A stretch of DNA of 64,000 bases, from assembly GCF_012927045.1 (NCBI RefSeq), contig NZ_JABBFW010000002.1:102702-166701 (forward strand), given 5' to 3'. This DNA comes from Azohydromonas caseinilytica (GTDB taxonomy: Bacteria > Pseudomonadota > Gammaproteobacteria > Burkholderiales > Burkholderiaceae_C). The translations under genes were made by a program, and so were the position numbers. Positions 35,339 to 64,000 of the stretch are shown here, piece after piece. Numbering within the stretch: the first letter of the stretch is position 1; each line of letters starts with the position of its first letter. Below the pieces are notes generated by a model, which ran no database searches, had not been told where the DNA came from, and saw only the letters and a list, made by a program, of their open reading frames with translations.

Positions 35339-35408
35339 ATGCCGGCCCGGGGCCGGCGCATGGGGCGGGAGCGGTTGCCGTCCACACACCAACAAGAAGG
35401 AAGTGACT

Positions 35409-38400
35409 GTGACCCGACATCTCGTCTTCATCGACAGCCGCGTGGCCGACTTCGAGCACCTCGTCGCGGCCCTGCCGCCGGACAGCGCCTGGGTGCGCGT
35501 CGAGGCGGAGCGTGACGGCCTCACGCAGATGCTGGCTGCCGCCGCGGCCTACCGCGGGCTGGCCTCGATCCAGATCGTCAGCCACGGCAGCGCCGGCGCG
35601 CTGTGGCTGGGTGCCGGCGTGCTGGACGACGCCATACTGGGCGCCGACGCGGCGCGGCTGCGGGCGCTGGGCGCCTCGCTCGCCGCCGACGGAGACCTGC
35701 TGCTCTACGGCTGCAACGTGGCGCAGGGCGAGGACGGAACGCACTTCATCGGCCGGCTCGCGGCCCTGACCGGCGCCGACGTCGCCGCCTCCACCGGCCT
35801 CACCGGCGCCGCGGCGCTGGGCGGCGACTGGCGCCTGGAAGCCGCCACCGGCGCCATCGAGGCCGCCACGCTGCGGCCCGCAGCCTACGCCGGCGTGCTC
35901 GGCACCTGGCAGGGCACGCTGGGCAACGACACCTACACCGGCACGGCCGGCGACGACACCCTCCTCGGCAGCGCCGGCAACGACGTGCTGGCCGGCGGCG
36001 CGGGCCACGACAACATCCAGACCTACGGCTACGGCGGCAGCGACCGCCTCGACGGCGGCGACGGCAACGACACGCTCGTGAGCTGGATCGGCGACGACAC
36101 GCTGCTGGGCGGCGCCGGCAACGACCAGCTCCAGGCCTTCGCGGGCAACGACCAGCTCGACGGCGGCCTGGGCCTGGACACGCTCTTCGGCGGCGATGGC
36201 CTGGACACGCTGCGCGGCGGCGCCGGCGACGACTATCTCGACGGCGGCGCGGGCAACAACACCCTGTTCGGCGACGCCGGCAACGACCGGCTGGTCACGC
36301 GCAACTACCTCGGCCACAACCGCCTCGACGGCGGCGACGGCAACGACTCGGTGCAGGCCGGATCGGGCAACGACACGCTGTGGGGCGGCAACGGCGACGA
36401 CCACCTGGAAGCCTGGAGCGGCGACGACGTCCTGGACGGCGGCGCGGGCCGCGACGTGCTGTTCGGGGGCGACGGGCTCGACACGCTGCTGGGCGGTGCC
36501 GACGACGATCACCTGGAGGGCCAGGCCGGCGCCGACCGGCTCGACGGCGGCCTGGGTGCCGACACGCTGCTGGGCGGCGGCGGCGGCAACACGCTGCTCG
36601 GCGGCGCCGGCAACGACCTCCTCAACGTCTACGGCCAGAGCGGCAACAACCTGCTCGACGGCGGCGACGGCAATGACAACCTCGACGGCGGCCTGAGCGC
36701 CGACACGCTGCTGGGCGGCAACGGCGACGACGACCTGTTCGCCGACGCCGGCAGCGACTCGCTCGACGGCGGGGCCGGGGCCGACACGCTGGTGGGCTAC
36801 GGCGGCAACGACACGCTGCAGGGCGGCGCGGGCGGCGACCGGCTCGAAGGCGGCAGCGGCGACGACGTCTATTACCTCGACGACCTCAACGACCGCGTCA
36901 TCGACAGCGCCGGCACCAAGGATATGGCCTATGTCTCGGCCAGCAACGTCTACGTGCCCAAATCGATCGAGCAGGTGATTTACACCAACGGCGCGCAGGC
37001 CTTGCCTTATTTCGTCTCGACCCTGTATTCCGGGACGATGATGAATTCCGCCATCGGCGGCGCGCGGTCGGTTCAATACAGTTTCGCGACCCAGGCCAGC
37101 GGCACGTCCGGTTTTGCGCTTTATTCAGCGCAGCAGCAGGCCGCCGTGCGCGAGGCGCTGGCCGCCTACAGCGCGGTGTCGGGACTGCGCTTCGTGGAAG
37201 TGGCCGACAGCGCCGGCGTGGGCATGCGTTTCTTCCGTGACAACCTGACTTCGGGCAACGTCTACAACGCCTCGGGTTATGCCATCGACGGCGGGGCCGT
37301 GCACATCCACAGCAGCGTCGTGGACATGGCCCGGGGCAGCTATGGCTTCCAGGTGCTGCTGCACGAGATCGGGCATTCGCTGTATTTGAAGCACCCCTTC
37401 GAGGCGCCCGTGCTCAACCCGGCCGAGGATAATCAGGCCAATACGGTGATGAGCTATAACCGCAGCGCGCCCTGGGTGCAGAATATCGGCATATTCGACC
37501 TGGCGACGATTCATTATCTTGCCGGCGTCAATACCCAGGCCCGCGTCGCCAACAATACCTATTCCCTGAGCGAGCGCTATATCTGGGACGGCGCCGGCGT
37601 GGACACCGTGACGGCGGCCGGGCAGGCGGCCAACGTCAGCATCAACCTCAACCCGGGCAGCTGGAATTTCGTGGGCAGCAAGGCCGCCAGCCTGCTGGCC
37701 GCCGGCCAGTCCTTCCTCGGCTTCGGCACGCTGATCGAGAACGCCATCGGCGGCTCGGGCCGCGACACGCTCACCGGCAACGCCGCGGCCAACGTGCTCA
37801 ACGGCGGCCTGGGCGCGGACACGCTCATCGGCGGCGCGGGCAACGACGTCTACGTGGTGGACAACGCGCTCGACGTGGTGAATGAAAGCTCCACGCTGGC
37901 CGCCGAGATCGACACCGTGCAGGCCGGCGTGAGCTGGACGCTGGGGGCCAATCTGGAGCGGCTGACGCTCACCGGTGCCGCAGCCGTCAACGGCACGGGC
38001 AACGCGCTGGCCAACCTGATCCTGGGCAACGCCGCGGCCAACGTGCTTGCCGGCGCCGACGGCCATGACCAGCTCGACGGCGGCGCGGGCAACGACACGC
38101 TGCAGGGCGGCATGGGCAACGACCTGCTCATCGGCGGCCTGGGGCTGGACCTGCTCGGCGGCGGCGCCGGCCAGGACGCCTTCCGCTTCATCGACCTGCC
38201 CGGCGCCGCCACGCTGGACACGCTCGGCGACTTCAGCAGCGTCGATGACCGGCTGGAGTTCGACGACGCGGTGTTCACCCGGCTGGGCCCGGTCGGGCAG
38301 GTGGGGAGCGGCGCCTTCGTGCAGGGCACGCGGGCACTGGATGCCGGCGACCGGCTGATCTACACCCAGTCCACCGGCCAGTTGCTCTACGACGCCGATG

Positions 38401-38483
38401 GCACGGGCGCCGGCGCGGCGGTGCTGGTGGCCAAGCTCACCGCCGGCACGGCGCTCAGCGCGGTGGACCTGTTCGTGGTGTGA
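35409..38483 (+). CDS. RTX protein with DUF4347 domain and serralysin-type (M10) metalloprotease domain
   Basis: About 1,024 residues. Residues 1-165 form a DUF4347 domain ('LVFIDSRV', '[15 protein letters not shown]', 'LLYGCNVA', 'TGADVAAS'). RTX nonapeptide repeats occupy about 175-490. A metzincin domain follows with zinc site [11 protein letters not shown] (652-662) and Met-turn 'VMSYN' (Met681). A second RTX block (about 775-940) leads to a C-terminal type I secretion region ending '[10 protein letters not shown]'. Serralysins are calcium-dependent secreted proteases; placing the catalytic domain between two RTX blocks is unusual. GTG 35409 is preferred over GTG 35403 because AGAAGG lies eight bases upstream. 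DNA for about residues 500-725 uses more AT-ending codons than its flanks. No transporter is adjacent. Confidence 0.9.
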
Positions 38484-51341: not shown

Positions 51342-53573
51342 TCAGAACCCCAGCTCGCGCACCAGCACGCTGGCGCCCGCCGTCCACAGCCGCTCCCACA
51401 GGCTGCGCGCGGGCTGCGGCAGCACGGCATGGCCGCGCCACTGGCGCAGCGACAGTGCCGGGTCCTCCAGCAGCTCCAGCTCCACGCGGTACAGCGGCTG
51501 CGTGAGCAGCAGCTCACGCCCGTGCGGCACGGCCTCCACCGCGCCGCCGTGGGCCTGCGCCAGCAGCGGCTCGCCCAGCACCGTGCTGGCGTGCGGGGCC
51601 ACGCTGGTCACGCGCGCGGACAGGCGCCGCAGCGGCGCGGCGTCGGCCATGAAGCTGGACTCGTCGCCCGGGCGCAGCGCGCGCGCGGCGTTCTCGCCGG
51701 CATAGGCCACGACGCGCCAGCGCCCCGACGCGGCGAACTGCAGCAGCGTCTGCTGCGGGCTCACCACCAGGCCCGGGCGCAGCCCGTCCTCCAGCGCCAG
51801 CACCACGCCGTCGAAGGGCGCGCGCGGGCGCAGCCGCTCGATCTCCTCCTGCACCGCCTCGACCTCGCGGCGCGCCGTCACCAGCTGCTCCTGCAGCGAG
51901 CCCCATTGCGCCTGCTGCACGGTGTCCACGCTGGCACCGGCCACCTGGGCCTGGAGCCGGCGCACCTGCACCTGCGCCGCCTGCAGCCGCTGCTCCAGCG
52001 CCGCGGCCGAGGCCTCCAGCAGCGGCGCGCCGGCCTTGACGCGCTGACCCGGCTGCACGTGCACGGCCTCCATCACCGCCGTCGCGGGCAGCCGCAGCGC
52101 CAGGTGCTGGGCCGGCTGCAGCAGCGCGCCGGCGCTCTCGTGCGAGGGCAGCGGGATGAAGCCCAGCACGGCCAGCGCGGCCAGCACCGCGGCGCTGCGG
52201 CGCTGCCGCGCGCTGCCGCGCCAGTGGGTGCGCCCGGCGTGCCAGGCGCGCAGCTCTTGAATGACGGGGCGCATGACGAACCAGCCCATTTCCACGGCGA
52301 AGAGCACGATGCCCACCGCCTTGATGGCGAAGTGATAGACCAGCCAGGCGATGCCGAGGTACAGCACCAGCCGGTAGGCCCAGGTGGCGAAAGCGAAGGC
52401 GACCCACAGCCGGCGCCGCGCCGGCGGCAGCTCCTCCGGCGGCGGCGCCTGCCAGCCCAGCAGCGCCCGGCGCAGCCACCAGCGCGCCAGCGCGAAGCTG
52501 CGCTCGTGCAGGTTGGGCTGGTCGAGCAGGTCGCACAGCACGAAGTAGCCATCGAAGCGCATGAACGGGCTGAGGTTGACCAGCACCGTGCCGACCCAGG
52601 TCAGCGTGCCCAGGATGAAGGCCGCCGTGCGCAGCGGCCCCTCGGGCAGCAGCGCCCAGGCCAGCGTGGCCCAGGCGGCGATGCTCAGCTCGGTGCGCAC
52701 CCCGGCCAGCGCCACCTGCAGCCGCGCGCGCGCGTCCGACAGCCGCCACACCTCGGAGGTGTCGGTGTAGGCCACCGGCCACAGCACCATGAAGGCCGCG
52801 CCCATGGTCGGCACGCGGCAGCCGTGCGCGCGGGCGACGAAGGCATGGCCGAACTCGTGCGCCACCTTCACCGCCACCAGCGTCAGGCCGTAGAGCGCCA
52901 GTCCGCGCCAGGACATCAGGTCCACGGCCTGGGCCCGGAACGCCTCCCAGTCGCGCGCCACGGCCAGCAGCCCCAGTACCAGCGCCGCGAGCGTGGCCCG
53001 CGTGAAGCCGCGGCTGCCCAGCCGCCGCGCCGCGGGCAGCAGGCGCTGCAGCAGCCGGTCGGGGTTGAACAGCGGGATGCGGAAGAACAGGTAGTGGTGC
53101 AGCAGCCAGGTGCCCACGGCCTTGAGCCCCGGCTCGGCCTCGGGCCCGCGCGGCGGCGCCGTGGGCTGCAGCAGCTCGTGGCGGTGGGCGAAGTCCAGCA
53201 CGCGCAGCACATGCTCCCTGGAGATGGACAGCGTGGTGTGGGCGTTGACCTGCTCGGCGATCAGCGCCGGGTCGGCCATCCACCAGCAGCGCAGCACCTC
53301 GTAGGTGATCCAGTCGATGCGCGTGAAGCGGTGGCGCACCGGGTCGTGCAGCGTCCAGCTGGGCGTGCCGTCGTGCAGCGCCGGGGCATGGTGCAGCTGC
53401 AGGTCCTGGCGCAGCTCGGGCCACGGCGGCGGGGCGGCCGGCGCCCTGGCCGGCAGCGAGAGGGCCGGCCGCCGGACCTCCGGCACCGCGGCGACGGCCG
53501 GCGTGGGCGCAATGACCGTCTTCGCCGCGGCCGGAGCGTCCGGCGTCGCGGCCCCGGCCGTCGCGTTCACCAT
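51342..53573 (-). CDS. M50 (site-2-protease-like) membrane metalloprotease fused to a HlyD-like lipoyl module
   Basis: 743 residues. After a low-complexity Ala/Pro start, residues about 70-138 ('TLHDPVRHRFTRIDWITYEVLRCW', 'ISREHVLRVLDFAHRHELLQP') look like a PqqD/RRE-type winged helix. A polytopic membrane region follows with the M50 zinc motif HEFGH at residue 239 and 'NLSPFMRFDGYFVLCDLLDQP', whose Asp is the expected third ligand. From about residue 480, after a last membrane helix, there is a membrane-fusion-type segment: 'VMEAVHVQPGQRVKAGAPLLEAS', a coiled-coil stretch, and 'RAPFDGVVLALEDGLRPG'. It resembles 'putative peptide zinc metalloprotease' proteins. Its ATG overlaps the end of the HlyD gene by seven bases. 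A role in processing or export of the upstream giant protein is inferred from the operon. Confidence 0.85.
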   Translation of the reverse strand: MVNATAGAATPDAPAAAKTVIAPTPAVAAVPEVRRPALSLPARAPAAPPPWPELRQDLQLHHAPALHDGTPSWTLHDPVRHRFTRIDWITYEVLRCWWMADPALIAEQVNAHTTLSISREHVLRVLDFAHRHELLQPTAPPRGPEAEPGLKAVGTWLLHHYLFFRIPLFNPDRLLQRLLPAARRLGSRGFTRATLAALVLGLLAVARDWEAFRAQAVDLMSWRGLALYGLTLVAVKVAHEFGHAFVARAHGCRVPTMGAAFMVLWPVAYTDTSEVWRLSDARARLQVALAGVRTELSIAAWATLAWALLPEGPLRTAAFILGTLTWVGTVLVNLSPFMRFDGYFVLCDLLDQPNLHERSFALARWWLRRALLGWQAPPPEELPPARRRLWVAFAFATWAYRLVLYLGIAWLVYHFAIKAVGIVLFAVEMGWFVMRPVIQELRAWHAGRTHWRGSARQRRSAAVLAALAVLGFIPLPSHESAGALLQPAQHLALRLPATAVMEAVHVQPGQRVKAGAPLLEASAAALEQRLQAAQVQVRRLQAQVAGASVDTVQQAQWGSLQEQLVTARREVEAVQEEIERLRPRAPFDGVVLALEDGLRPGLVVSPQQTLLQFAASGRWRVVAYAGENAARALRPGDESSFMADAAPLRRLSARVTSVAPHASTVLGEPLLAQAHGGAVEAVPHGRELLLTQPLYRVELELLEDPALSLRQWRGHAVLPQPARSLWERLWTAGASVLVRELGF

Positions 53574-54865
53574 CCTAGGGCCTCGCGCAGCGCCGCCAGC
53601 GGCCGGCGCAGCACCCAGTACACCAGCGGCACGCGCGCGCCGTCCACGTGGGCGGTGCCGCGCGCGCCCAGGCGCTCGCGCGGCGGGCCTTCGAGGCGGC
53701 CGCGCAGCCGGTAGGCCAGGGTGCCGTCCGGGCGCTGCGCGGCCTCGTAGGCGTAGAGCCGCAGTTGCGCGGCCACGGGCTCGGCGGGGCGGCTGGAGAG
53801 GAACAGCCGCATGCCGCTGTCCGGGGGCAGCTCCACCGCGTCGGCCACGGACAGCCAGGCCTCGACCTCCTGGTCCTCGGGCCGGGCCAGGCGCAGCAGC
53901 GGCTCGCCGGCGGCCACGGTGCGCCCGGCCCAGTTGCCCGGGTCCTCGACCAGCACCACGCCGTCATGCGGGGCGCGCACCTCGGTGCGCTGCACCTGCT
54001 CGCTGAGGTAGGCCACCTCGGTGCGCTTTTCCGCCACGCGGCCCTGCACCACGGCCAGCTGGGCCTTGGCCCGCGCGTCGGTGAGGGCCTGCTGCATGGT
54101 CTGGCGCCATTCGGCCTCGGCGGTGAGCAGGGCCTGGCGCGCCACCTGCAGCCGGCTCGCGGCCTGGGCGTCGTCGAGCTCGGCCAGCAGCTGCCCAGCC
54201 TTGACCACCTGGTTGGGCTCGACCAGCAGCCGCTGCGCCATGCCCTCCACGGTGGCGCGCAGCACGGTGGGTTCGCGCGGCACGATCTCGCCGGGCGCGC
54301 GCACGGTCAGCCGGATCGGCAGCGCCAGCACCAGCAGCACCGCCGCGGCCACCGCCATGCTGCGGCGGCGCGGCCTGAAGCCGCGGACCTTGTCCCGCAG
54401 CGCGCCCAGGTCCAGCGCCTTGCGCGGCTGCGCCGCCACGGCGGCCTGCTCGGCCAGCAGCCACAGGTCGAGCCATTCCTGCAGCGCGGCGATCTCGCCG
54501 GGCGTCCAGGGCATCTCGCGCACCAGCAGCAGCGCGCCGCGCGCACCCGCGGGCAACGCCAGCGCATACGGCGGCCACCACTGCGCCCAGTCCTCGGCCA
54601 GCGCCGGCAGCTCCTGCGCGCCGAAGGGGCCGGCCTGGCCGGCACGCGCGCGCGCCAGGCGCTGCAGCCACTGGCCGTAGGGCCCGTGCGCATCGACCTG
54701 GCTGGCGCCGGAGTGGAACAGCGCGCCGTCCTGCCAGAGGACGGCGGCGTGGTAGGGCAGGTGCGCGCGCGTGCCGTCGAGCAGCACGAAGCGTCGTGCC
54801 GCCGGCGTCTGCGCTGCGCGGACCGTGGCCAGCAACTGCAAGGTGGCCTCGGCGCTCAGACTCAT
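53567..54865 (-). CDS. HlyD-family periplasmic adaptor with an extra N-terminal cytoplasmic domain
   Basis: 432 residues. Residues 1-165 are soluble and not typical of HlyD proteins ('RRFVLLDG', 'AAVLWQDGALFHSG', 'WPPYALALPAGARGALLLVREMPWTPGEIAALQEWLDLWLLAEQ'); the pattern suggests a GAF-like sensor fold. A basic stretch and one membrane helix (about 168-190) follow, then the adaptor: lipoyl half 'VEGMAQRLLVEPNQVVKAGQLLAELDD', a coiled-coil hairpin, second half 'RAPHDGVVLVEDPGNWAGRTVAAGEPLLRLA', and a beta-barrel part. Adaptors bridge inner-membrane exporters to outer-membrane channels. It starts 52 bases after the giant gene and overlaps the M50 gene by seven bases. No ABC ATPase or TolC-like gene is visible in the cluster. 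Confidence 0.87.
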   Translation of the reverse strand: MSLSAEATLQLLATVRAAQTPAARRFVLLDGTRAHLPYHAAVLWQDGALFHSGASQVDAHGPYGQWLQRLARARAGQAGPFGAQELPALAEDWAQWWPPYALALPAGARGALLLVREMPWTPGEIAALQEWLDLWLLAEQAAVAAQPRKALDLGALRDKVRGFRPRRRSMAVAAAVLLVLALPIRLTVRAPGEIVPREPTVLRATVEGMAQRLLVEPNQVVKAGQLLAELDDAQAASRLQVARQALLTAEAEWRQTMQQALTDARAKAQLAVVQGRVAEKRTEVAYLSEQVQRTEVRAPHDGVVLVEDPGNWAGRTVAAGEPLLRLARPEDQEVEAWLSVADAVELPPDSGMRLFLSSRPAEPVAAQLRLYAYEAAQRPDGTLAYRLRGRLEGPPRERLGARGTAHVDGARVPLVYWVLRRPLAALREALGW

Positions 54866-54917
54866 GGCAATTCCCGGGGGTGGTACTGCTGGTCAGCCGG
54901 TGTTGCTGCTCAGCCGG

Positions 54918-57900
54918 TCAGGTCCGGCGCAGGGCATGGCGCTGGGCCTGCCACTGGCCGTTGCGGTGCGCCAGCGCCTCGCCGCGCATGAGCTGGGTGT
55001 CCAGCCCGACGCGGCCCGAGGGCGTCACCGTCGCGGGCTGCGACAGGATACGGAACACCGCGTTGGCCTCGCGGTTCTTGGTGTCGCGGCCCGTGACAAC
55101 CACACGCAAATCCACCGCCGCACCCGGGGGTGGCTCGCCCGTGAAGGTGCCCGCCTTGCCGTCGAAGTGCAGCCAGCCCGGCAGCGGCTGGCCGTTGGCC
55201 TGCTTGGCCGTGAGCAGCACCGTCTCGTTGGGGTCGGTGTGCACGAACACGTCGGCCGGGAGCTGGACGTTGATCACGCGGGTGGTGACCACCTGGTCCT
55301 CCACGCCGTTGAACAGGCGCAGCAGGGGCTCCTTGGCCGGCGTGACCATGGTGCGGAAGCCGCTGGAGCGGGTGTAGATGTCGTCGATGCCGGCGCCGCG
55401 CTCCGAGCCGCTGCGCTGGTCATCCCACGGGTTGAGCCCCGTGAAGCGCTGCAGCGGGTCGGCCAGCGGGTTGTCCGCGGGCAGGCCCAGCGCGGCGAAG
55501 CCCGGGGTCTGCGGCGCGGGCGAGGGCGCCGGGGGCGGCTCGGCCGAGGCCGGCGCCGGCGCAGGTGCCGGCGTGGGCGGGGCTTCCGGCTGGACGGGCG
55601 GCGGCGGGACGTCGTCGTCCACGATCGTGCCCGTGCCGGTGACGGCCTGGCCACCGACCGGGGCCACGACCAGCCGCACATCCTCGTTGTCCTCGATGCT
55701 GTCGTCCCCGTTCACCTGCACGCGCACCAGCAGGCTGCCGTCGGCGGACAGCGCGACCGGGCCGCCGCCGTAGCGCAGCCAGGTCTTGCCGCCGTCGAGC
55801 GAGTAGCGCAGCTCCGTGCCGTAGTCCTCGCCGGCCGCGGCCGAGCCGCCCTCGCGCCGCAGGGTCACCGGCTGGCCGGGGCTGCCGGTGATGGCGAAGA
55901 GCAGGTCGCCCGAGCCCTCGGTGACGCTGGGGCTGGAGATGACGATGGGGCGGTCGTCGGTGCGCGGGGCGTCGGGATCGATGCGGCCATCGGCACCGAA
56001 GACGTCGCCGGAGCCGTCGTCCTTGATGGTGGCCGTGCCGGTAGCGGCCACGCCGCCGGCCGGGGTGACGGTGAGCGTGAAGGTCTCGCCGTTGTCGGAG
56101 ATGCGGTCCTCGACGATGGACGTGCGCACCAGGATCGCGCCGCCCGCGGGCAGCGTGACGGCGCCGCCGTAGCCCGCCCAGGTCTTGCCGCCATCGACGG
56201 AAACCTGCAGCCCGCCGGTGCCGAAGTCCACGCCGGCCGTGGCCGTGCCGCCGGCGAGCGCCAGGCTCACCGACTGGCCGGCGCTGCCGGTGACGGTGAA
56301 GACCGCGTAGGGCGAGGCCTCGTTGACGCTGACGCTGTTGACGCTCACCGGGCGGTCGTCGGTACGGCGGCCGGCCGGGTCAGACGTGCCGTCGCCCTTG
56401 AAGACGGTGCCGGTGCCGTCGTCGCGGATGGTGGCGGTGCCGGTGGCGGCCACGCCGCCGGCCGGGGTGGCGCTGAGCGTGAAGGTCTCGCCGTTGTCGC
56501 TGACCGCGTCGTCGGTGAGCGGGGTGCGCACCAGGATCGCGCCGCCCGCGGGCAGCGTGACGGCGGCGCCGTAGCTCGTCCAGGTCTTGCCGCCGTCGGT
56601 GGAGACCTGCAGGTTCGCGCCGCCGGTGGCGCCGAAGTCCACGCCGGCGCCGGTGGCGGTGCCGCCGCCAAGCGCCAGGCTCACCGACTGCCCGGCGCTG
56701 CCGGTGACGGTGAAGACCGCGTAGGGCGAGGCCTCGTTGACGCTGATGCTGCTGACGGCGAGCGGCGCGACCGGATCGACGCTGATGCTCACCGTGCCGG
56801 TGTCGGTGGCGGTGCCGTCGGTGAGGACGTAGTCGAAGCTCACCGGGCCGGTGTAGCCGGCTTCCGGGGTGAAGCGGATCACGCCGTTGCCGTTGACGCG
56901 CAGCGTGCCGTGGGGCACGGCGATGCTCTGCTCGCGGCCGGTGAGCGCCACGCCGTTGATGGACCGGATGCTCAGGCGGTCGCCGTCGGCGTCGGTGTCG
57001 TTGGCGAGCAGGCTCAGCGCGTTGCCGCTGCTGTTCTGCAACACCGTGGAGCGGTCGTCGCCGGCCACCGGGGCGTCGTTGACCGGGGTGACGCCGATGC
57101 GCACGGTGCCGGTATCGCTGGTCGTGCCGTCGGTGACGACGTAGTCGAAGCTCGCCGGGCCGTTGTAGTTGGCCTCCGGCACGAAGGTCAGCGTGCCGTC
57201 GGCGCCGACGCGCACCGTGCCGTGGGGCACGGCGATGACCTGGGCGGTGCCCGGCGTGAGCAGCGTGCCGTTGATGGACTGGATGCGCAGCGTGTCGCCG
57301 TCGGCATCGCGGTCGTTGCCCAGCAGGTTCAGCGCGAGCGGGGTGTCCTCAGCCACCGTGAAGCCGTCGTCATCGGCCACCGGGGCGTCATTGACCGGGG
57401 TGACGGCGATGCTGACCGTGCCGGTGTCGGTGCCGCCCTGGCCGTCGGTGAGGACGTAGTCGAAGCTCACCGGGCCGTTGTGGTTGGCCGCCGGGGTGAA
57501 GGTGATCACGCCGTTGCCGTTGACGCGCACGGTGCCGTGGGGCACGGCGATGCTCTGCTCGCGGCCGGTGAGCGCCACGCCGTTGATGGACTGGATGCTC
57601 AGGCGGTTGCCGTCGGCGTCGGTGTCGTTGCCGAGCAGGTCGAGCACGTTGCCCTTGCTGTCCTCCACCACCGTGAAGCGGTCGTCGCCGGCCACCGGGG
57701 CGTCGTTGACCGGGGTGACGGCGATGCGCGCGGTGCCGGTGTCGGTGCCGCCCTGGCCGTCGGTGACGACGTAGTCGAAGCTCACCGGGCCGGTGTAGTT
57801 GGCGGCCGGAACGAAGGTGATCACGCCGTCGGCGCCGACGCGCACCGTGCCGTGGGGCACGGTGATGCTCTGCGCGGTGCCGGGCGTGAGCGCCACGCCG

Positions 57901-60900
57901 TTGATGGACTGGATGCTCAGCGTGTTGCCATCGACGTCGGTGTCGCCGTCGAGCAGGTTGAGCGCGATGCCGGGGCTGTCCTCGGCCACGGTGAAGCTGT
58001 CGTCACGGGCCACCGGGGCGTCATTGACCGGGGTGACGACGATGCTGACCGTACCGGTGTCGGTGGCCATGCCGTCGGTGATGACGTAGTCGAAGCTCAC
58101 CGGGCCGTTGTAGTTGGCGGCCGGGACGAAGGTGAGCCCGCCCGCGGCGCCGACGCGCACCGTGCCGTGGGGCACGGTGATGCTCTGTTCGCCGCCGGTG
58201 AGCGCCACGCCGTTGATGGACTGGATGCGCGGCGTGGTGCCGTCGGCGTCGCGGTCGTTGCCCAGCAGGTTGAGCGTGAGCGGGGTGTCCTCGGCCACCG
58301 TGAAGCGGTCGTCCACGGCCACCGGGGCGTCGTTGACCGGGGTGACGGCGATGCTGACGGTGCCGGTGTCGGCGCCGCCATAGCCGTCGCTGACGACGTA
58401 ATCGAAGCTCACCGGGCCGGTGTAGTTGGCCTCCGGGATGAAAGTCAGCGTGCCGTCGGCGCCGACGCGCACGGTGCCGTGGGGCACGCTGATGCTCTGT
58501 TCGCCGCCGGTGAGCGCCACGCCGTTGATGGATTGGAGGCGCAGCGTGCCGCCGTCGATGTCGGTGTCGTTGCCGAGCAGGCTCAGCGTGACCGCGCCGT
58601 CCTCGGCCACCGTGACGCTGTCGTCACGCGCCACCGGGGCGTCGTTCACCGGGGTGACGGCAATGCTGACCGTGCCGGTGTCGGTGAGGCTGCCGTCGGT
58701 GACGACGTAGTCGAAGCTCACCGGGCCGTTGTAGTTGGCGGCCGGGATGAAGGTGAGCACGCCCGAGGCGCTGACGCGCACGGTGCCGTGGGGCACGCTG
58801 ATGCTCTGCTCGCCGCCGGTGAGCGCCACGCCGTTGATGGATTGCAGGCGCGGCGTGGTGCCGTCGGCATCGCGGTCATTGCCCAGCAGGTTGAGCGCGA
58901 GCGGGGTGTCCTCGGCCACCGTGAAGCGGTCGTCCACGGCCACCGGGGCGTCGTTGACCGGGGTGACGGCGATGCGGACCGTGCCGGTGTCGGTGAGGCT
59001 GCCGTCGGTGACGGTGTAGTCGAAGCTCACCGGGCCGTTGTAGTTGGCTTCCGGGATGAAGGTCAGCGTGCCGTCGGCGCCGACGCGCACGGTGCCGTGG
59101 GGCACGCTGATGCTCTGTTCGCCGCCGGTGAGCGCCACGCCGTTGATGGATTGGAGGCGCAGCGTGGTGCCATCGGCATCGCGGTCGTTGCCCAGCAGGT
59201 TGAGCACGGTGCCGGTGCCGTCCTCGGCGACCGTGAAGCTGTCGTCGCCGGCCACCGGGGCGTCGTTCACCGGGGTGACGGTGATGCTGACCGTGCCGGT
59301 GTCGGTGGCCGTGCCGTCGGTGACGACGTAGTCGAAGCTCACCGGGCCGTTGTAGTTGGCGGCCGGGATGAAGGTGAGCACGCCCGAGGCGCTGACGCGC
59401 ACGGTGCCGTGGGGCACGCTGATGCTCTGCTCGCCGCCGGTGAGCGCCACGCCGTTGATGGATTGCAGGCGCGGCGTGGTGCCGTCGGCATCGCGGTCAT
59501 TGCCCAGCAGGTTGAGCGCGAGCGGGGTGTCCTCGGCCACCGTGAAGCGGTCGTCCACGGCCACCGGGGCGTCGTTGACCGGGGTGACGGCGATGCGGAC
59601 CGTGCCGGTGTCGGTGAGGCTGCCGTCGGTGACGACGTAGTCGAAGCTCACCGGGCCGTTGTAGTTGGCTTCCGGGATGAAGGTCAGCGTGCCGTCGGCG
59701 CCGACGCGCACGGTGCCGTGGGGCACGGCGATGCTCTGCTCGGCGCCGGTGAGCACGATGCCGTTGATGGACTGGATGCGCAGCGTGCCACTGTCGATGT
59801 CGGTGTCGTTGCCCAGCAGGTTGAGCGTGACCGTGCCGTCCTCGGCCACCGTGACGCTGTCGTCCACGGCCACCGGAGCGTCATTGACCGGGGTGACGGC
59901 GATGCGGACCGTGCCGGTGTCGGTGAGGCTGCCGTCGGTGACGACGTAGTCGAAGCTCACCGGGCCGTTGTAGTTGGCTTCCGGAATGAAGGTGAGCACG
60001 CCCGCGGCGCTGACGCGCACCGTGCCGTGGGGCACGCTGATGCTCTGCTCGGCGCCGATGAGCGCCACGCCGTTGATGGACTGCAGGCGCGGCGTGGTGC
60101 CGTCGGCATCGCGGTCATTGCCCAGCAGGTTGAGCGTGAGCGGAGTGTCCTCGGCCACCGTGAAGTGGTCGTCAACGGCCACCGGCGCGTCGTTGACCGG
60201 GGTGACGGCGATGCTGACGGTGCCGATGTCGGTGAGGCTGCCGTCGGTGACGGTGTAGTCGAAGCTCACCGGGCCGGTGTAGTTGGCCTCCGGAACGAAG
60301 GTGATCACGCCGTCGGCGCCGACGCGCACCGTGCCGTGGGGCACGGCGATGCTCTGCGCGATGCCGGGAGTGAGCGCCACGCCGTTGATGGAGCTGATGC
60401 TCAGCGTGTTGCCATCGACGTCGGTGTCGCCGTCGAGCAGGTCGAGCGTGATGCCGGGGCTGTCCTCGGCCACGGTGAAGCCGTCGTCACGGGCCACCGG
60501 GGCGTCGTTGACCGGGGTGACGCTGATGCTGACCGTGCCGGTGTCGGTGGCCGTGCCGTCGGTGACGACGTAGTCGAAGCTCACCGGGCCTTTGTAGTTG
60601 GCGGCCGGAACGAAAGTCAGCACGCCGGCGGCGCTGATGCGCACCGTGCCGTTGGGCACGCTGATGGTTTGCTCGCCACCGGTGAGTGCCACGCCGTGGA
60701 TGGACTGCAGGCGCAGCGTGCCGCCGTCGATGTCGGTGTCATTGCCGAGCAGGCTCAGCGTGACCGTGCCGTCCTCGGCCACCGTGAAGCTGTCGTCCAC
60801 GGCCACCGGGGCGTCGTTGACCGGGGTGACGCTGATGCTGGCCGTGCCGGTGTCGGTGAGCGTGCCGTCGGTGACGACGTAGTCGAAGCTCACCGGGCCG

Positions 60901-63900
60901 CTGTAGTTGGCGGCCGGGGTGAAGGTGATGACGCCGGCGGCGCTGACGCGCACCGTGCCGTTGGGCACGGCGATGGTCTGTTCGCCGCCGGTGAGCAGGG
61001 TGCCGTGGATGGACTGGACGGCCAGCGTGTTGCCGTCGGCGTCGGTGTCGTTGCCGAGCAGGTTGAGCGTGACCGTGCCGTCCTCGGCCACCGTGAAGCG
61101 GTCGTCAACGGCCACCGGGGCGTCGTTGACCGGGGTGACGGTGACGTTGACCGTGCCGGTGTCGGTGCCGCCAAAGTCGTCGGTGACGACGTAGTCGAAG
61201 CTCACCGGGCCGTTGTAGTTGGCGGCCGGGATGAAGGTCAGCGTGCCGTCGGCGCCGACGCGCACGGTGCCGTTGGGCACGGTGATGGTCTGCTCGCCGC
61301 CGGTGAGGGTGACGCCGTTGATGGACTGGACGCGCAGCGGGTCCCCGTCGTCGTCGGTGTCGCCGTCGAGCAGGTCCAGCGCGACTGAGCCGTCCTCGGC
61401 CACCGTGACGCTCTCGTCATCGGCCTCCGGGGCGACGTTGAACCGGGTGACGTTGATGCTGACCGTGCCGGTGTCGGTAGCCGTGCCGTCGCTGACGACG
61501 TAGTTGAAGCTCACCGGGCCGCGGTAGTTGGCCGAGGGCGAGAAGGTGATCACGCCGGTGGCGCTGACCTGCACCGTGCCGTTGGGCACGGGAATGGTCT
61601 GCGCAATGCCGGGAGTGAGCGCGACGCCGCCGATGGACTGGATGCTCAGCGTGTTGCCATCGGCGTCGGTGTCGTTGCCGAGCAGGTTGAGCACGTTGCC
61701 GGTGCTGTCCTCGACCACCGAGAAGCTGTCGTCACCGGCCACCGGGGCGTCGTTGACCGGGGTGACGGTGATGGTGGCGGTGCCGGTGTCGGTAGCCGTG
61801 CCGTCGCTGACGACGTAGTCGAAGCTCACCGGGCCGCTGTAGTTGGCGGCCGGGGTGAAGGTGAGCACGCCGGCGGTGCTGACGTACACGGTGCCGTTGG
61901 GCACGGCGATGGTGTAGGCGGTGCCGGCGCTGATGGCGGTGCCGTTGATGGAGGACACGCGCAGCGTGCCGCCGTCGATGTCGGTGTCGTTGCCCAACAG
62001 GTTCAGCACGGTGCCGGTGCTGTCCTCGGCCACGGTGAAGCTGTCGTCGCCGGCCACCGGGGCATCGTTGACCGGGGTGACGGTGATGGTGGCCGTGCCG
62101 GTGTCGGTAGCCGTGCCGTCGCTGACCTCGTAGCTGAAGCTCACCGTGCCGCTGTAGTTGGCGGCCGGGGTGAAGGTGACCACGCCGGTGGTGCTGACGT
62201 ACACCGTGCCGTTGGGCACGGCGATGGTGTAGGCGGTGCCGGCGCTGATGGCGGTGCCGTTGACGGAGGACACGCGCAGCGCGCCGCCGTCGATGTCGGT
62301 GTCGTTGCCCAGCAGATTCAGCACGGTGCCCGTGCTGTCCTCGGCCACGGTAAAGGCGTCGTCACCGGCCACCGGGGCATCGTTGACCGGGGTGACGGTG
62401 ATGGTGGCGGTGCCGGTGTCGGTAGCCGTGCCGTCGCTGACGACGTAGTCAAAGCTCACCGTGCCGCTGTAGTTGGCGGCCGGGGTGAAGGTGACGACGC
62501 CGGCGGTGCTGACGTACACCGTGCCGTTGGGCACGGCAATGGTGTAGGCGGTGCCGGCAGTGATGGCGGTGCCGTTGATGGCAGACACGCGCAGCGCGCC
62601 GCCGTCGATGTCGGTGTCGTTGCCCAGCAGGTTGAGCACGGTGCCCGTGCTGTCCTCGGCCACCGTGAAGGCGTCGTCACCGGCCACCGGGGCGTCGTTG
62701 ACCGGGGTGACGGTGATGGTGGCCGTGCCGGTATCGGTGCCGCCGTTGCCGTCGGAGACGACGTAGTCAAAGCTCACCGTGCCGCTGTAGTCGGCGACCG
62801 GGGTGAAAGTGACCACGCCGGCGGTGCTCACGTACACGGTGCCGTTGGGCACGGCGATGGTGTAGGCGGTGCCGGCGCTGATGGCGGTGCCATTGATGGA
62901 CGCGATGCGCAGCGTGTCGCCATTGGCGTCGGTGTCGTTGCCGAGCAGGTTCAGCGTGAGCGAGCCGTCCTCGGCGACCGTGGAGCTGTCGTCAACGGCC
63001 ACGGGTGCGACGTTGGCGGCCGCCGCGACGTTGATGGTGACCGCGCCGGTATCGGTAGCCGTGCCGTCGCTGACGACGTAGTTGAAGCTCACCGTGCCGG
63101 TGTAGTTGACGGCCGGAGTGAAGGTGACCACGCCGGCGGTGCTGACGTACACGGTGCCGTTGGTCACGGCGATGGTGTAGGCGGTGCCGGCGCTGATGGC
63201 GGTGCCGTTGATGGAAGCGATGCGCAGTGCGCCGCCGTCGATGTCGGTGTCGTTGCCCAGCAGATTCAGCACGTTGGCACCGCTGTTCTTGACCACGGTG
63301 AAAACGTCATCGTCAGCCACCGGGGCGTCGTTGACCGGGGTGACGGTGATGGTGGCCGTGCCGGTGTCGGTAGCCGTGCCGTCGCTGACCTCGTAGCTGA
63401 AGCTCACCGTGCCGCTGTAGTTGGCGGTCGGGGCGAAGGTGACGACGCCGGCGGTGCTGACGTACACCGTGCCGTTGGTCACGGCAATGGTGTAGGCGGT
63501 GCCGGCGCTGATGGCGGTGCCGTTGATGGAAGCAATGCGCAGCGCGCCGCCGTCGATGTCGGTGTCGTTGCCCAGCAGGTTGAGCAGGTTGCCGGTGCTG
63601 TCCTCGGCCACCGTGAAGGCGTCGTCACCGGCCACCGGGGCATCGTTGACCGGGGTGACGGTGATGGTGGCCGTACCGGCGTCGGTAGCCGTGCCGTCGC
63701 TGACCTCGTAGCTGAAGCTCACCGTGCCGCTGTAGTTGGCGGCCGGGGCGAAGGTGACCACGCCGGCGGTGCTGACGTACACCGTGCCGTTGGTCACGGC
63801 GATGGTGTAGGCGGTGCCGGCGCTGATGGCGGTGCCGTTGATGGAAGCAATGCGCAGCGCGCCGCCGTCGATGTCGGTGTCGTTGCCCAGCAGATTCAGC

Positions 63901-64000
63901 ACGGTGCCCGCGCTGTCCTCGGCCACCGTGAAGGCGTCGTCACCGGCCACCGGGGCATCGTTGACCGGGGTGACGGTGATGGTGGCCGTGCCGGTGTCGG
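54918..64000 (-). CDS. Giant cadherin-like (tandem-95 type) repeat surface protein, N terminus outside window
   Basis: More than 3,020 residues are visible and the frame is still open at base 64000. It begins (within the window) with 23 complete repeats of about 103-106 residues of the 'VNDAPVA.DD.FTVAEDG....LLGNDTDADG' type, which belong to the cadherin-like/tandem-95 group with Asp-rich calcium sites. Three Calx-beta-like domains follow at about 55.6-56.8 kb ('VNEASPYAVFTVTGSAGQ', 'DNGETFTL'), then a Pro/Ala linker, and a CADG/He_PIG-like domain ('DVFVHTDPNETVLLTAKQANGQPLPGWLHFD'). The C terminus ends in 'RHALRRT' without RTX repeats, LPxTG or an autotransporter barrel. It is probably an adhesin-like surface or secreted protein. 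The operon continues with the HlyD and M50 genes. A GTG at 63950 is not a real start. Confidence 0.92.
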   Translation of the reverse strand, partial: DTGTATITVTPVNDAPVAGDDAFTVAEDSAGTVLNLLGNDTDIDGGALRIASINGTAISAGTAYTIAVTNGTVYVSTAGVVTFAPAANYSGTVSFSYEVSDGTATDAGTATITVTPVNDAPVAGDDAFTVAEDSTGNLLNLLGNDTDIDGGALRIASINGTAISAGTAYTIAVTNGTVYVSTAGVVTFAPTANYSGTVSFSYEVSDGTATDTGTATITVTPVNDAPVADDDVFTVVKNSGANVLNLLGNDTDIDGGALRIASINGTAISAGTAYTIAVTNGTVYVSTAGVVTFTPAVNYTGTVSFNYVVSDGTATDTGAVTINVAAAANVAPVAVDDSSTVAEDGSLTLNLLGNDTDANGDTLRIASINGTAISAGTAYTIAVPNGTVYVSTAGVVTFTPVADYSGTVSFDYVVSDGNGGTDTGTATITVTPVNDAPVAGDDAFTVAEDSTGTVLNLLGNDTDIDGGALRVSAINGTAITAGTAYTIAVPNGTVYVSTAGVVTFTPAANYSGTVSFDYVVSDGTATDTGTATITVTPVNDAPVAGDDAFTVAEDSTGTVLNLLGNDTDIDGGALRVSSVNGTAISAGTAYTIAVPNGTVYVSTTGVVTFTPAANYSGTVSFSYEVSDGTATDTGTATITVTPVNDAPVAGDDSFTVAEDSTGTVLNLLGNDTDIDGGTLRVSSINGTAISAGTAYTIAVPNGTVYVSTAGVLTFTPAANYSGPVSFDYVVSDGTATDTGTATITVTPVNDAPVAGDDSFSVVEDSTGNVLNLLGNDTDADGNTLSIQSIGGVALTPGIAQTIPVPNGTVQVSATGVITFSPSANYRGPVSFNYVVSDGTATDTGTVSINVTRFNVAPEADDESVTVAEDGSVALDLLDGDTDDDGDPLRVQSINGVTLTGGEQTITVPNGTVRVGADGTLTFIPAANYNGPVSFDYVVTDDFGGTDTGTVNVTVTPVNDAPVAVDDRFTVAEDGTVTLNLLGNDTDADGNTLAVQSIHGTLLTGGEQTIAVPNGTVRVSAAGVITFTPAANYSGPVSFDYVVTDGTLTDTGTASISVTPVNDAPVAVDDSFTVAEDGTVTLSLLGNDTDIDGGTLRLQSIHGVALTGGEQTISVPNGTVRISAAGVLTFVPAANYKGPVSFDYVVTDGTATDTGTVSISVTPVNDAPVARDDGFTVAEDSPGITLDLLDGDTDVDGNTLSISSINGVALTPGIAQSIAVPHGTVRVGADGVITFVPEANYTGPVSFDYTVTDGSLTDIGTVSIAVTPVNDAPVAVDDHFTVAEDTPLTLNLLGNDRDADGTTPRLQSINGVALIGAEQSISVPHGTVRVSAAGVLTFIPEANYNGPVSFDYVVTDGSLTDTGTVRIAVTPVNDAPVAVDDSVTVAEDGTVTLNLLGNDTDIDSGTLRIQSINGIVLTGAEQSIAVPHGTVRVGADGTLTFIPEANYNGPVSFDYVVTDGSLTDTGTVRIAVTPVNDAPVAVDDRFTVAEDTPLALNLLGNDRDADGTTPRLQSINGVALTGGEQSISVPHGTVRVSASGVLTFIPAANYNGPVSFDYVVTDGTATDTGTVSITVTPVNDAPVAGDDSFTVAEDGTGTVLNLLGNDRDADGTTLRLQSINGVALTGGEQSISVPHGTVRVGADGTLTFIPEANYNGPVSFDYTVTDGSLTDTGTVRIAVTPVNDAPVAVDDRFTVAEDTPLALNLLGNDRDADGTTPRLQSINGVALTGGEQSISVPHGTVRVSASGVLTFIPAANYNGPVSFDYVVTDGSLTDTGTVSIAVTPVNDAPVARDDSVTVAEDGAVTLSLLGNDTDIDGGTLRLQSINGVALTGGEQSISVPHGTVRVGADGTLTFIPEANYTGPVSFDYVVSDGYGGADTGTVSIAVTPVNDAPVAVDDRFTVAEDTPLTLNLLGNDRDADGTTPRIQSINGVALTGGEQSITVPHGTVRVGAAGGLTFVPAANYNGPVSFDYVITDGMATDTGTVSIVVTPVNDAPVARDDSFTVAEDSPGIALNLLDGDTDVDGNTLSIQSINGVALTPGTAQSITVPHGTVRVGADGVITFVPAANYTGPVSFDYVVTDGQGGTDTGTARIAVTPVNDAPVAGDDRFTVVEDSKGNVLDLLGNDTDADGNRLSIQSINGVALTGREQSIAVPHGTVRVNGNGVITFTPAANHNGPVSFDYVLTDGQGGTDTGTVSIAVTPVNDAPVADDDGFTVAEDTPLALNLLGNDRDADGDTLRIQSINGTLLTPGTAQVIAVPHGTVRVGADGTLTFVPEANYNGPASFDYVVTDGTTSDTGTVRIGVTPVNDAPVAGDDRSTVLQNSSGNALSLLANDTDADGDRLSIRSINGVALTGREQSIAVPHGTLRVNGNGVIRFTPEAGYTGPVSFDYVLTDGTATDTGTVSISVDPVAPLAVSSISVNEASPYAVFTVTGSAGQSVSLALGGGTATGAGVDFGATGGANLQVSTDGGKTWTSYGAAVTLPAGGAILVRTPLTDDAVSDNGETFTLSATPAGGVAATGTATIRDDGTGTVFKGDGTSDPAGRRTDDRPVSVNSVSVNEASPYAVFTVTGSAGQSVSLALAGGTATAGVDFGTGGLQVSVDGGKTWAGYGGAVTLPAGGAILVRTSIVEDRISDNGETFTLTVTPAGGVAATGTATIKDDGSGDVFGADGRIDPDAPRTDDRPIVISSPSVTEGSGDLLFAITGSPGQPVTLRREGGSAAAGEDYGTELRYSLDGGKTWLRYGGGPVALSADGSLLVRVQVNGDDSIEDNEDVRLVVAPVGGQAVTGTGTIVDDDVPPPPVQPEAPPTPAPAPAPASAEPPPAPSPAPQTPGFAALGLPADNPLADPLQRFTGLNPWDDQRSGSERGAGIDDIYTRSSGFRTMVTPAKEPLLRLFNGVEDQVVTTRVINVQLPADVFVHTDPNETVLLTAKQANGQPLPGWLHFDGKAGTFTGEPPPGAAVDLRVVVTGRDTKNREANAVFRILSQPATVTPSGRVGLDTQLMRGEALAHRNGQWQAQRHALRRT
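56770..64000 (-). repeat. Array of ~309-318-base repeats encoding cadherin-like domains
   Basis: At least 23 tandem units. Those right of about 61.8 kb are mostly 315-318 bases and of one subtype (protein 'NGTAISAGTAYTIAV.NGTVYVSTAGVVTF'); those to the left are mainly 309-315 bases and of a second subtype ('INGVALTGGEQSI.VPHGTVRVGADG'). The units at 58735-59019 and 59356-59640 appear identical base for base, which indicates recent duplication of a two-unit block of 621 bases. Confidence 0.92.

Follow-up and report, generated by a model that had tools for sequence, protein, structure and literature searches.

Within 64,000 nucleotides of the Azohydromonas caseinilytica genome (the window, meaning the whole stretch analysed) and just beyond its end lie five genes on one strand that encode, in order, an OEP/TolC-family channel protein, a small HlyD-type adaptor, a giant tandem-95 repeat protein, a GAF-like/HlyD adaptor and a PqqD-like/M50/HlyD fusion. 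We propose, giving it about an even chance, that this operon would export the giant through an HlyD/TolC-type conduit free of any ATP-binding cassette (ABC) protein, with a short LE(P/Q)R tag close to the giant's N-terminus as the starting point. What would power such a route? A sister lineage of the gene set (type B) is likely driven by a SecA-like motor of its own, and for the lineage found in the window (type A) our guess is the housekeeping SecA or another energy source. More tentatively, and as a possibility that we hold to be rather less than even, we propose a new Gram-negative secretion system for giants of up to about 19,000 residues, in which a PqqD-like domain would read the LE(P/Q)R leader, a SecA-family motor would move the chain, an HlyD-fused membrane protease would clip it and a TolC-type channel would let it out, in two co-evolved versions with their own leader spellings (..MFDGA and ..LLSAD).

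The tag and the gene for the protease-adaptor fusion (M50-HlyD) travel together. The LEPR-XLL model NF012209, made by NCBI independently of the loci studied here, gave matches at E<=1e-3 in 38 of the 299 phylum genomes sampled (21 of 154 genera). M50-HlyD is present in 37 of those 38 against 89 of 299 overall (E<=1e-20; 47 of 154 genera), with a Fisher p of 1.6e-21 that, like the other such value given here, treats genomes as independent, which related genomes are not. The sole LEPR-XLL genome lacking the fusion gene (G347) is 86% complete. The class sample gives the same picture, with M50-HlyD in 9 of 10 LEPR genomes (E<=1e-3) and in 20 of 143 overall (E<=1e-30). Of the 84 genomes with the domain DUF4347, which the giant also carries, 71 have M50-HlyD (p 7.9e-38), and in the class sample 13 of 16 DUF4347 genomes have the fusion gene. 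Does the tag follow the fusion gene merely through DUF4347? Among genomes without DUF4347, M50-HlyD occurs in 9 of 10 LEPR genomes and in 18 of 215 in all, so that the link between tag and fusion gene does not depend on DUF4347.

We scanned 153 loci, comprising 80 from named genomes (the best 80 of 552 confirmed stretches) and 33 and 40 further stretches, the 40 being phylum loci taken one per genus from the 89 positive genomes. An M50-HlyD frame is present in 137 of the 153, most of which were fetched for holding one and many of which are cut by contig ends. The conserved association of genes foreseen in the original prediction, which had been made from the window's letters, is borne out: an HlyD gene adjoins M50-HlyD in 119 of 132 loci with room for one, and 53 giant-type frames were found with their 5' ends in view. 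Its statement that no ABC ATPase is visible can likewise be extended from the operon to the wider set, since neither a motif search nor a home-made profile found an ABC gene inside the core span of any of the 137 loci.

The operon and its proteins

The original prediction described three tightly packed genes on one strand, two with membrane-fusion modules and one of these also a zinc protease, and this description is accurate. On the minus strand the giant frame ends at 54918 and is followed by a 52-base gap, the adaptor gene P0002, a 7-base overlap and the fusion gene P0001. HlyD_3 matches both P0001 (5.1e-10) and P0002 (2.4e-13), and P0001 contains HEFGH and FDGY motifs and matches Peptidase_M50 (PF02163, 2.6e-7) as well as HlyD_D23. 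The features of the trio, all on the minus strand, are as follows.

51342..53573, minus strand: M50-HlyD fusion P0001, 743 aa, with a PqqD-like N-terminal domain, a predicted M50 intramembrane-type metalloprotease and an HlyD/MacA-like adaptor
53181..53399, minus strand: PqqD/RRE-like domain of P0001, residues 59-131, suggested by predicted-model topology and by PqqD (PF05402) matches of homologues
52845..52859, minus strand: HEFGH zinc-binding motif, P0001 residues 239-243, from the alignment and the HExxH count
52545..52556, minus strand: FDGY motif, P0001 residues 340-343, with D341 invariant in the alignment
51345..52151, minus strand: HlyD (periplasmic adaptor) part, P0001 residues 475-743, from Pfam HlyD_D23 and HlyD_3 and a MacA-like fold
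53567..54865, minus strand: GAF-like/HlyD adaptor P0002, 432 aa, from HlyD_3 and model topology
54918..64000, minus strand: 3' part of the giant tandem-95/cadherin-like gene P0003, with the 5' part beyond the window at contig 12 166801-170286 (L007:1-3486)
54984..55283, minus strand: conserved C-terminal module of the giant (..PADxFxHT..He_PIG-like..GRxGLxxQL..), from a profile match
56711..63992, minus strand: repeats of ~312 nt (about 104 aa) in tandem, with about 22 copies inside the window, from repeat analysis and NF012211

No outer-membrane channel had been seen originally, which proves to be an effect of the window's edge. Just beyond base 64000, directly upstream of the giant gene and on the same strand, lie a small HlyD gene (251 aa, HlyD_3 1.3e-21) and an OEP-family gene (PF02321, 6.9e-32), which brings the HlyD-type adaptors encoded in the operon to three (P0001, P0002 and small HlyD). 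Of the dedicated upstream ABC-HlyD-TolC set that would have spoken for ordinary export, the HlyD-TolC pair is therefore present and the ABC gene is absent, with none among the five genes of the operon. Farther upstream, the operon's strand carries a DEAD-box helicase gene and the opposite strand encodes an ABC protein containing ABC_tran_Xtn, which is of the soluble ABC-F kind and not part of an exporter set. A scan for promoters and terminators gave no promoter-like site and one terminator-like site against 0.7 expected. The 6.65 Mb assembly holds a second five-gene set on contig 31 (L006, L119), in which the giant frame is unbroken at 3930 codons. The giant gene of the window, by comparison, starts at contig position 170286 (about window position 67585), so that the window ends inside it, and is interrupted by a run of 99 N at 64001-64099. 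As assembled, the frames on either side of this run are discontinuous, and its length is therefore probably only an estimate.

P0001 is predicted to be a membrane protease of the M50 (site-2) type, with HExxH and a distal D lying within membrane helices. H239, E240, H243 and the D341 of FDGY, the motif of the third zinc ligand in M50 proteases, are invariant in all 24 aligned M50-HlyD proteins from both lineages. HExxH is found in 136 of 137 related M50-HlyD frames, the exception (L092) being a split frame. In the predicted model (mean predicted local distance difference test score 80, predicted template modelling score 0.59), residues 59-131 form three strands followed by three helices; long helices come next and surround the HExxH and distal D motifs, and the HlyD part follows. 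The nearest solved folds to the HlyD part are MacA chains (E 1.8e-13, though with a template modelling score of just 0.25 across the full query). Of the 24 aligned homologues, seven match PqqD (PF05402) at E<=1, L101 best of all at 7.3e-7. The PqqD family comprises leader-binding domains known as RiPP recognition elements (RRE), which bind the leaders of ribosomally synthesized and post-translationally modified peptides (RiPP). Against the model of the daptide protease (NF041824), P0001 scores 167 bits over residues 106-430 and does not reach the cut-off of 300. Its nearest row in the tree is from Azohydromonas aeria, at 79% identity.

In P0002 an N-terminal alpha/beta domain, GAF-like by model topology, precedes an HlyD part whose nearest solved fold is likewise MacA. 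The profile scan gave no Pfam GAF match in P0002 itself, and its type-B counterpart in L160 matches Pfam GAF at 6.6e-5.

The giant belongs to the tandem-95 kind (NF012211, 23 stretches, 1360 bits) and carries a DUF4347 domain and the tag LEPRLMFDAA near its N-terminus, which reads MSEPTWNKKPLASALPRAWALEPRLMFDAAA. It scores 100.3 bits against the BapA/Bap/LapF model, below the cut-off of 180, with the best stretch within the repeat region. No GGxGxD motif was found in the window's part of the giant, in keeping with the earlier remark that it shows no repeats-in-toxin (RTX) signal. The giants end in a conserved module of ~100 residues, and residues 2890-2989 of P0003 match a profile of it built from 24 other giants with an i-Evalue of 1.8e-25 (Z set to 100000). 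The longest LEPR-tagged open frames that we noted run to 19,427 codons (G197, contig 115), 15,434 codons (G154, contig 1) and 14,920 codons (G147, contig 1).

Two lineages and the distribution of the tag

By profile score, the M50-HlyD frames fall into type A (116 loci, the window's kind) and type B (21 loci), a division that is partly one of construction because 12 and 9 of the 24 aligned members went into the respective profiles. The genes beside the fusion differ as well. A SecA-like ATPase, called when a profile match of E<1e-40 lay no more than 1000 bases away on the same strand, adjoins M50-HlyD in 17 of the 21 type-B loci and in none of the 116 of type A. The neighbouring HlyD frame has 602-696 codons in 17 of the 21 type-B loci (three not found, one cut) and 430-560 codons in 96 of the 116 type-A loci; in the remainder of type A it exceeds 560 codons in three (L063, L064, L070), is shorter in five and was not found in 12. 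The SecA-like frames are mostly of 655-684 codons. In the eight of 17 that were scanned, SecA_DEAD (e-68 to e-104), SecA_PP_bind and P-loop_SecA are present and SecA_SW and SEC-C are absent, both of which the housekeeping SecA of A. caseinilytica possesses. A fast tree of the fusion proteins clusters the SecA-adjacent members, with four changes of label against a mean of 16.3 when labels are shuffled. Might A. caseinilytica have a dedicated SecA elsewhere? This was rejected, as its genome has a single SecA gene and no second one was found.

The spelling of the tag follows the lineage. Type-A tags are of the ..MFDGA kind and type-B tags of the ..LLSAD kind (LEPR-LLSAD), and the D ending goes with type A in 36 of 36 cases and the S ending with type B in 6 of 6; the comparison covered 44 of 45 tagged giants, eight of them paired via another stretch of their own genome and two left unplaced. 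A screen of genomes with the strict DNA pattern LExRxxFD(G/A)A was abandoned in favour of the NCBIfam model. Because the type-B tag ends in SAD, the pattern had picked up no more than 4 of the 143 genomes, and the hit in G014 was apparently due to chance.

How regularly do the giants carry the tag? We counted as giant-type any frame of at least 350 codons with the conserved C-terminal module and/or DUF4347. The tag is present in 42 of the 53 such frames, 39 by a fixed expression (LExR.[x]FD(G/A)A or LEPR-LLSAD) and three as close variants (L147 and L156, by eye, and L155); the expression was formed on some of the loci in which it is also counted, and the independent test is the LEPR-XLL model described above. 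Of the 11 untagged frames, seven were judged to be fragments or contig edges (L011, L013, L048, L054, L076, L077, L101) and the remaining four are DUF4347 proteins with other export features (L008, L095, L107, L120). Seven of these N-termini were inspected, and L013, L048, L054 and L076 were judged from coordinates. Only three of the 1341 other frames with 350 codons or more have the tag, all of them long frames of such loci (1979 codons in L013, 1745 in L076 and 843 in L114).

Taking as start the first M within 75 residues before the tag, we find that the tag begins at residue 4-74 (median 26) in the 45 tagged giants, none of which shows a Sec-like hydrophobic stretch there (13-residue Kyte-Doolittle maximum 0.59-1.82). 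The maximum is 2.08-2.45 in the untagged DUF4347 proteins of L095, L106 and L107, and those of L120 and L008 contain RTX repeats. The same passenger domain, DUF4347, thus occurs with three kinds of export feature, namely the tag, RTX repeats or a hydrophobic N-terminus. Could DUF4347 itself be the export signal? We rejected this idea because the five untagged DUF4347 proteins inspected have RTX repeats or hydrophobic Sec-like N-termini, and because M50-HlyD persists in nine of the ten LEPR genomes without DUF4347. The L120 protein lies in the window itself (35403-38483, plus strand) and offers a natural control: a second DUF4347 protein with 13 RTX stretches, a serralysin C-terminal domain and no LEPR tag.

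ESPR is a leader extension of Sec-dependent type V proteins. Seven giants, three of them picked for their ESPR, were scanned, and in three it precedes the tag (2.4e-13, 4.4e-9 and 4.8e-14). The giant with the value of 2.4e-13 is the second copy of A. caseinilytica on contig 31; the window's own giant has no ESPR.

Proposed route and alternative explanations

How might these parts work together? The giant would be synthesized in the cytoplasm and have no ordinary Sec signal peptide, and its LEPR tag would be bound by the PqqD-like domain of the M50-HlyD protein, much as RiPP leaders are bound by RRE domains. A SecA-type motor would then thread the chain across the inner membrane, this being the dedicated SecA-like protein in type B and, in type A, perhaps the single housekeeping SecA or some other source of energy. 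The M50 domain would cut the tag or a nearby stretch within the membrane and so commit or release the chain, the three HlyD-type adaptors and the OEP channel would carry the giant to the surface, and the C-terminal module may hold or cap it there. From domain content we infer that the PqqD-like domain reads the tag and that the M50 domain cuts it. Taken together, the tag, the type-B SecA-like gene and the PqqD-like fold favour export guided by leader recognition over simple retention. A role in export or anchoring, as suggested originally, is still the best reading of the gene set.

Several findings weigh against this proposal. P0001 itself has no Pfam PqqD match, and the case for a PqqD-like domain comes from model topology and the seven of 24 homologues. 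Both A. caseinilytica giants match the LEPR-XLL model only at E 0.01 and 0.03 and so the genome falls outside the 38 positives; the window's giant scores 15.1 bits by hmmscan of the protein and 19.3 in the genome search (cut-off 17 bits), and the model fits the type-B spelling better than that of type A. M50-HlyD occurs with neither DUF4347 nor LEPR-XLL in nine of the 89 genomes, some of them with weak M50 matches. The A. caseinilytica operon has no ATPase gene and its genome a single SecA, which makes the motor supposed for type A a guess. Three type-B loci (L097, L155, L160) lack a SecA-like neighbour with no contig end as explanation, the fourth (L091) being at a contig edge. The fast tree needs four SecA-label changes and not one, the assignment of L114 to its type is a close call, and the partly built-in division into types belongs here too. 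Nor is the tag exclusive of other export routes: at least one GGxGxD occurs in 7 of the 45 tagged giants (four in L104, seven in L042), the giant of L042 also matches RTX repeats, and RTX and serralysin domains are reported for a tagged giant of Vibrio (PMC10868602). Finally, seven of the 137 loci have one or more genes of ABC or ATPase type within 3 kb of the core, and those in L143 (an ABC gene with a membrane region) and L074 (an ABC domain) could be exporters.

These last points would fit ordinary type I secretion, with an unlinked ABC exporter powering the HlyD and OEP pieces and the M50 part as an accessory. HlyD and OEP are the classical partners of ABC exporters, and tagged giants with RTX repeats exist (L042; PMC10868602). 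We nevertheless consider this explanation unlikely. The core span is free of ABC genes throughout the 137 loci, the window's part of the giant has no GGxGxD, and the sister lineage has a SecA-like ATPase instead. As candidate exporters, the nearby genes fail in five of the seven loci, which encode proteins of other kinds: ABC-F (L114), AAA (L056), SMC (L144) and branched-chain amino acid transporters (L015 and L077), with L143 and L074 excepted. An improbable alternative, to our minds, is that the tag region is an unusual Sec signal, that the giant crosses the inner membrane by normal Sec and that only the outer-membrane step is special, much as MacA/TolC picks up its substrates in the periplasm, the PqqD-like domain not being a tag reader. 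The resemblance of both HlyD parts to MacA, the ESPR ahead of the tag in three giants and the want of a motor of its own in type A fit such a two-step route. It accords poorly with the N-termini of the tagged giants, all 45 of which stay at or below 1.82 and lack a Sec-like hydrophobic core, with the linkage of tag and M50-HlyD even in the absence of DUF4347, and with the agreement between tag class and M50-HlyD type in 42 of 42 placed cases.

Might the gene set instead keep the giant in the envelope or let it go, a possibility raised in the original prediction? LapD and LapG retain or release LapA, and on that model the giant would exit by another system, with the M50-HlyD and GAF-like/HlyD proteins anchoring or cutting it on a signal. 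The protease residues are intact, the GAF-like domain could sense a signal and the conserved C-terminal module could be the held end. An OEP channel and three HlyD-type adaptors of its own, with a SecA-like ATPase in type B, exceed the needs of an anchor, however, and the tag stands at the end that is made first; we regard such a device as very unlikely.

Relation to known systems and neighbouring genes

What would export by a tag and a fusion protease mean? Little is known of how bacteria export proteins whose length runs to thousands or even tens of thousands of residues, and the sources found give no function for the domains named LEPR-XLL and DUF4347. If the proposal is true, a single short tag and a single gene set would account for how a large class of giants leaves the cell (M50-HlyD in 89 of 299 phylum genomes), and a secretion route uniting Sec parts, type I conduits and RiPP leader recognition would be added to those known. 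A clear prediction follows, namely that the tag serves as an address which the M50-HlyD protein reads.

Type I secretion (HlyB-HlyD-TolC; LapBCE for giant adhesins) is among the closest comparisons, sharing HlyD adaptors, an OEP/TolC channel gene and an adjacent giant, repeat-rich, adhesin-like substrate. The present set differs in having no ABC exporter in the core (0 of 137), an N-terminal tag, no RTX motif in the window's part of the giant, an additional protease-adaptor fusion and, in type B, a SecA-like ATPase. With the HlyD and OEP features present, the ABC feature missing and the substrate signal ambiguous (a conserved C-terminal module, but no GGxGxD in the window's part), we do not file it as type I secretion, although it may work like such a system beyond the inner membrane. 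MacA of MacAB-TolC is the nearest solved fold of both HlyD parts, yet the operon has no MacB-type ABC partner and one of the HlyD parts is fused to an M50 protease. The daptide RiPP metalloprotease (NF041824) and YydH/LiaK are also M50-type proteases; P0001, at 167 bits, falls below the 300-bit cut-off of the former, is fused to HlyD and has a giant rather than a small peptide as its partner. Accessory Sec (SecA2/SecY2) likewise links a second SecA-family ATPase to a large repeat-rich protein, a likeness confined to type B. Here, in contrast, HlyD and OEP proteins take the place of partners, neither SecA_SW nor SEC-C occurs in the SecA-like protein (in the eight of 17 scanned), and A. caseinilytica has no such protein. 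As for proteins already named after LEPR-XLL (NF012209) or DUF4347, the window's giant resembles them in both LEPRLMFDAA and DUF4347; the sources found assign them no export machinery, whereas here the tag is tied to a gene set. No published description of such a gene set was found in the open-access literature, preprints apart, including passages of PMC10868602 and PMC12322963. None of the known systems that we found unites a leader tag with a protease-adaptor fusion and a SecA-type motor.

Some type-B loci have further genes of note. At L137:2404-4748, beside a type-B locus, a short MotB-type frame (identified by eye) stands with an EH_Signature protein, a pair reminiscent of the Zorya defence system, and an FhaC/ShlB-type porin gene lies on the opposite side. 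At three other type-B loci there is a SapC-family gene (PF07277, e-71 to e-75; L101:18552-19313, L108:13899-14687 and L124:6700-7593), which may be part of the type-B set.

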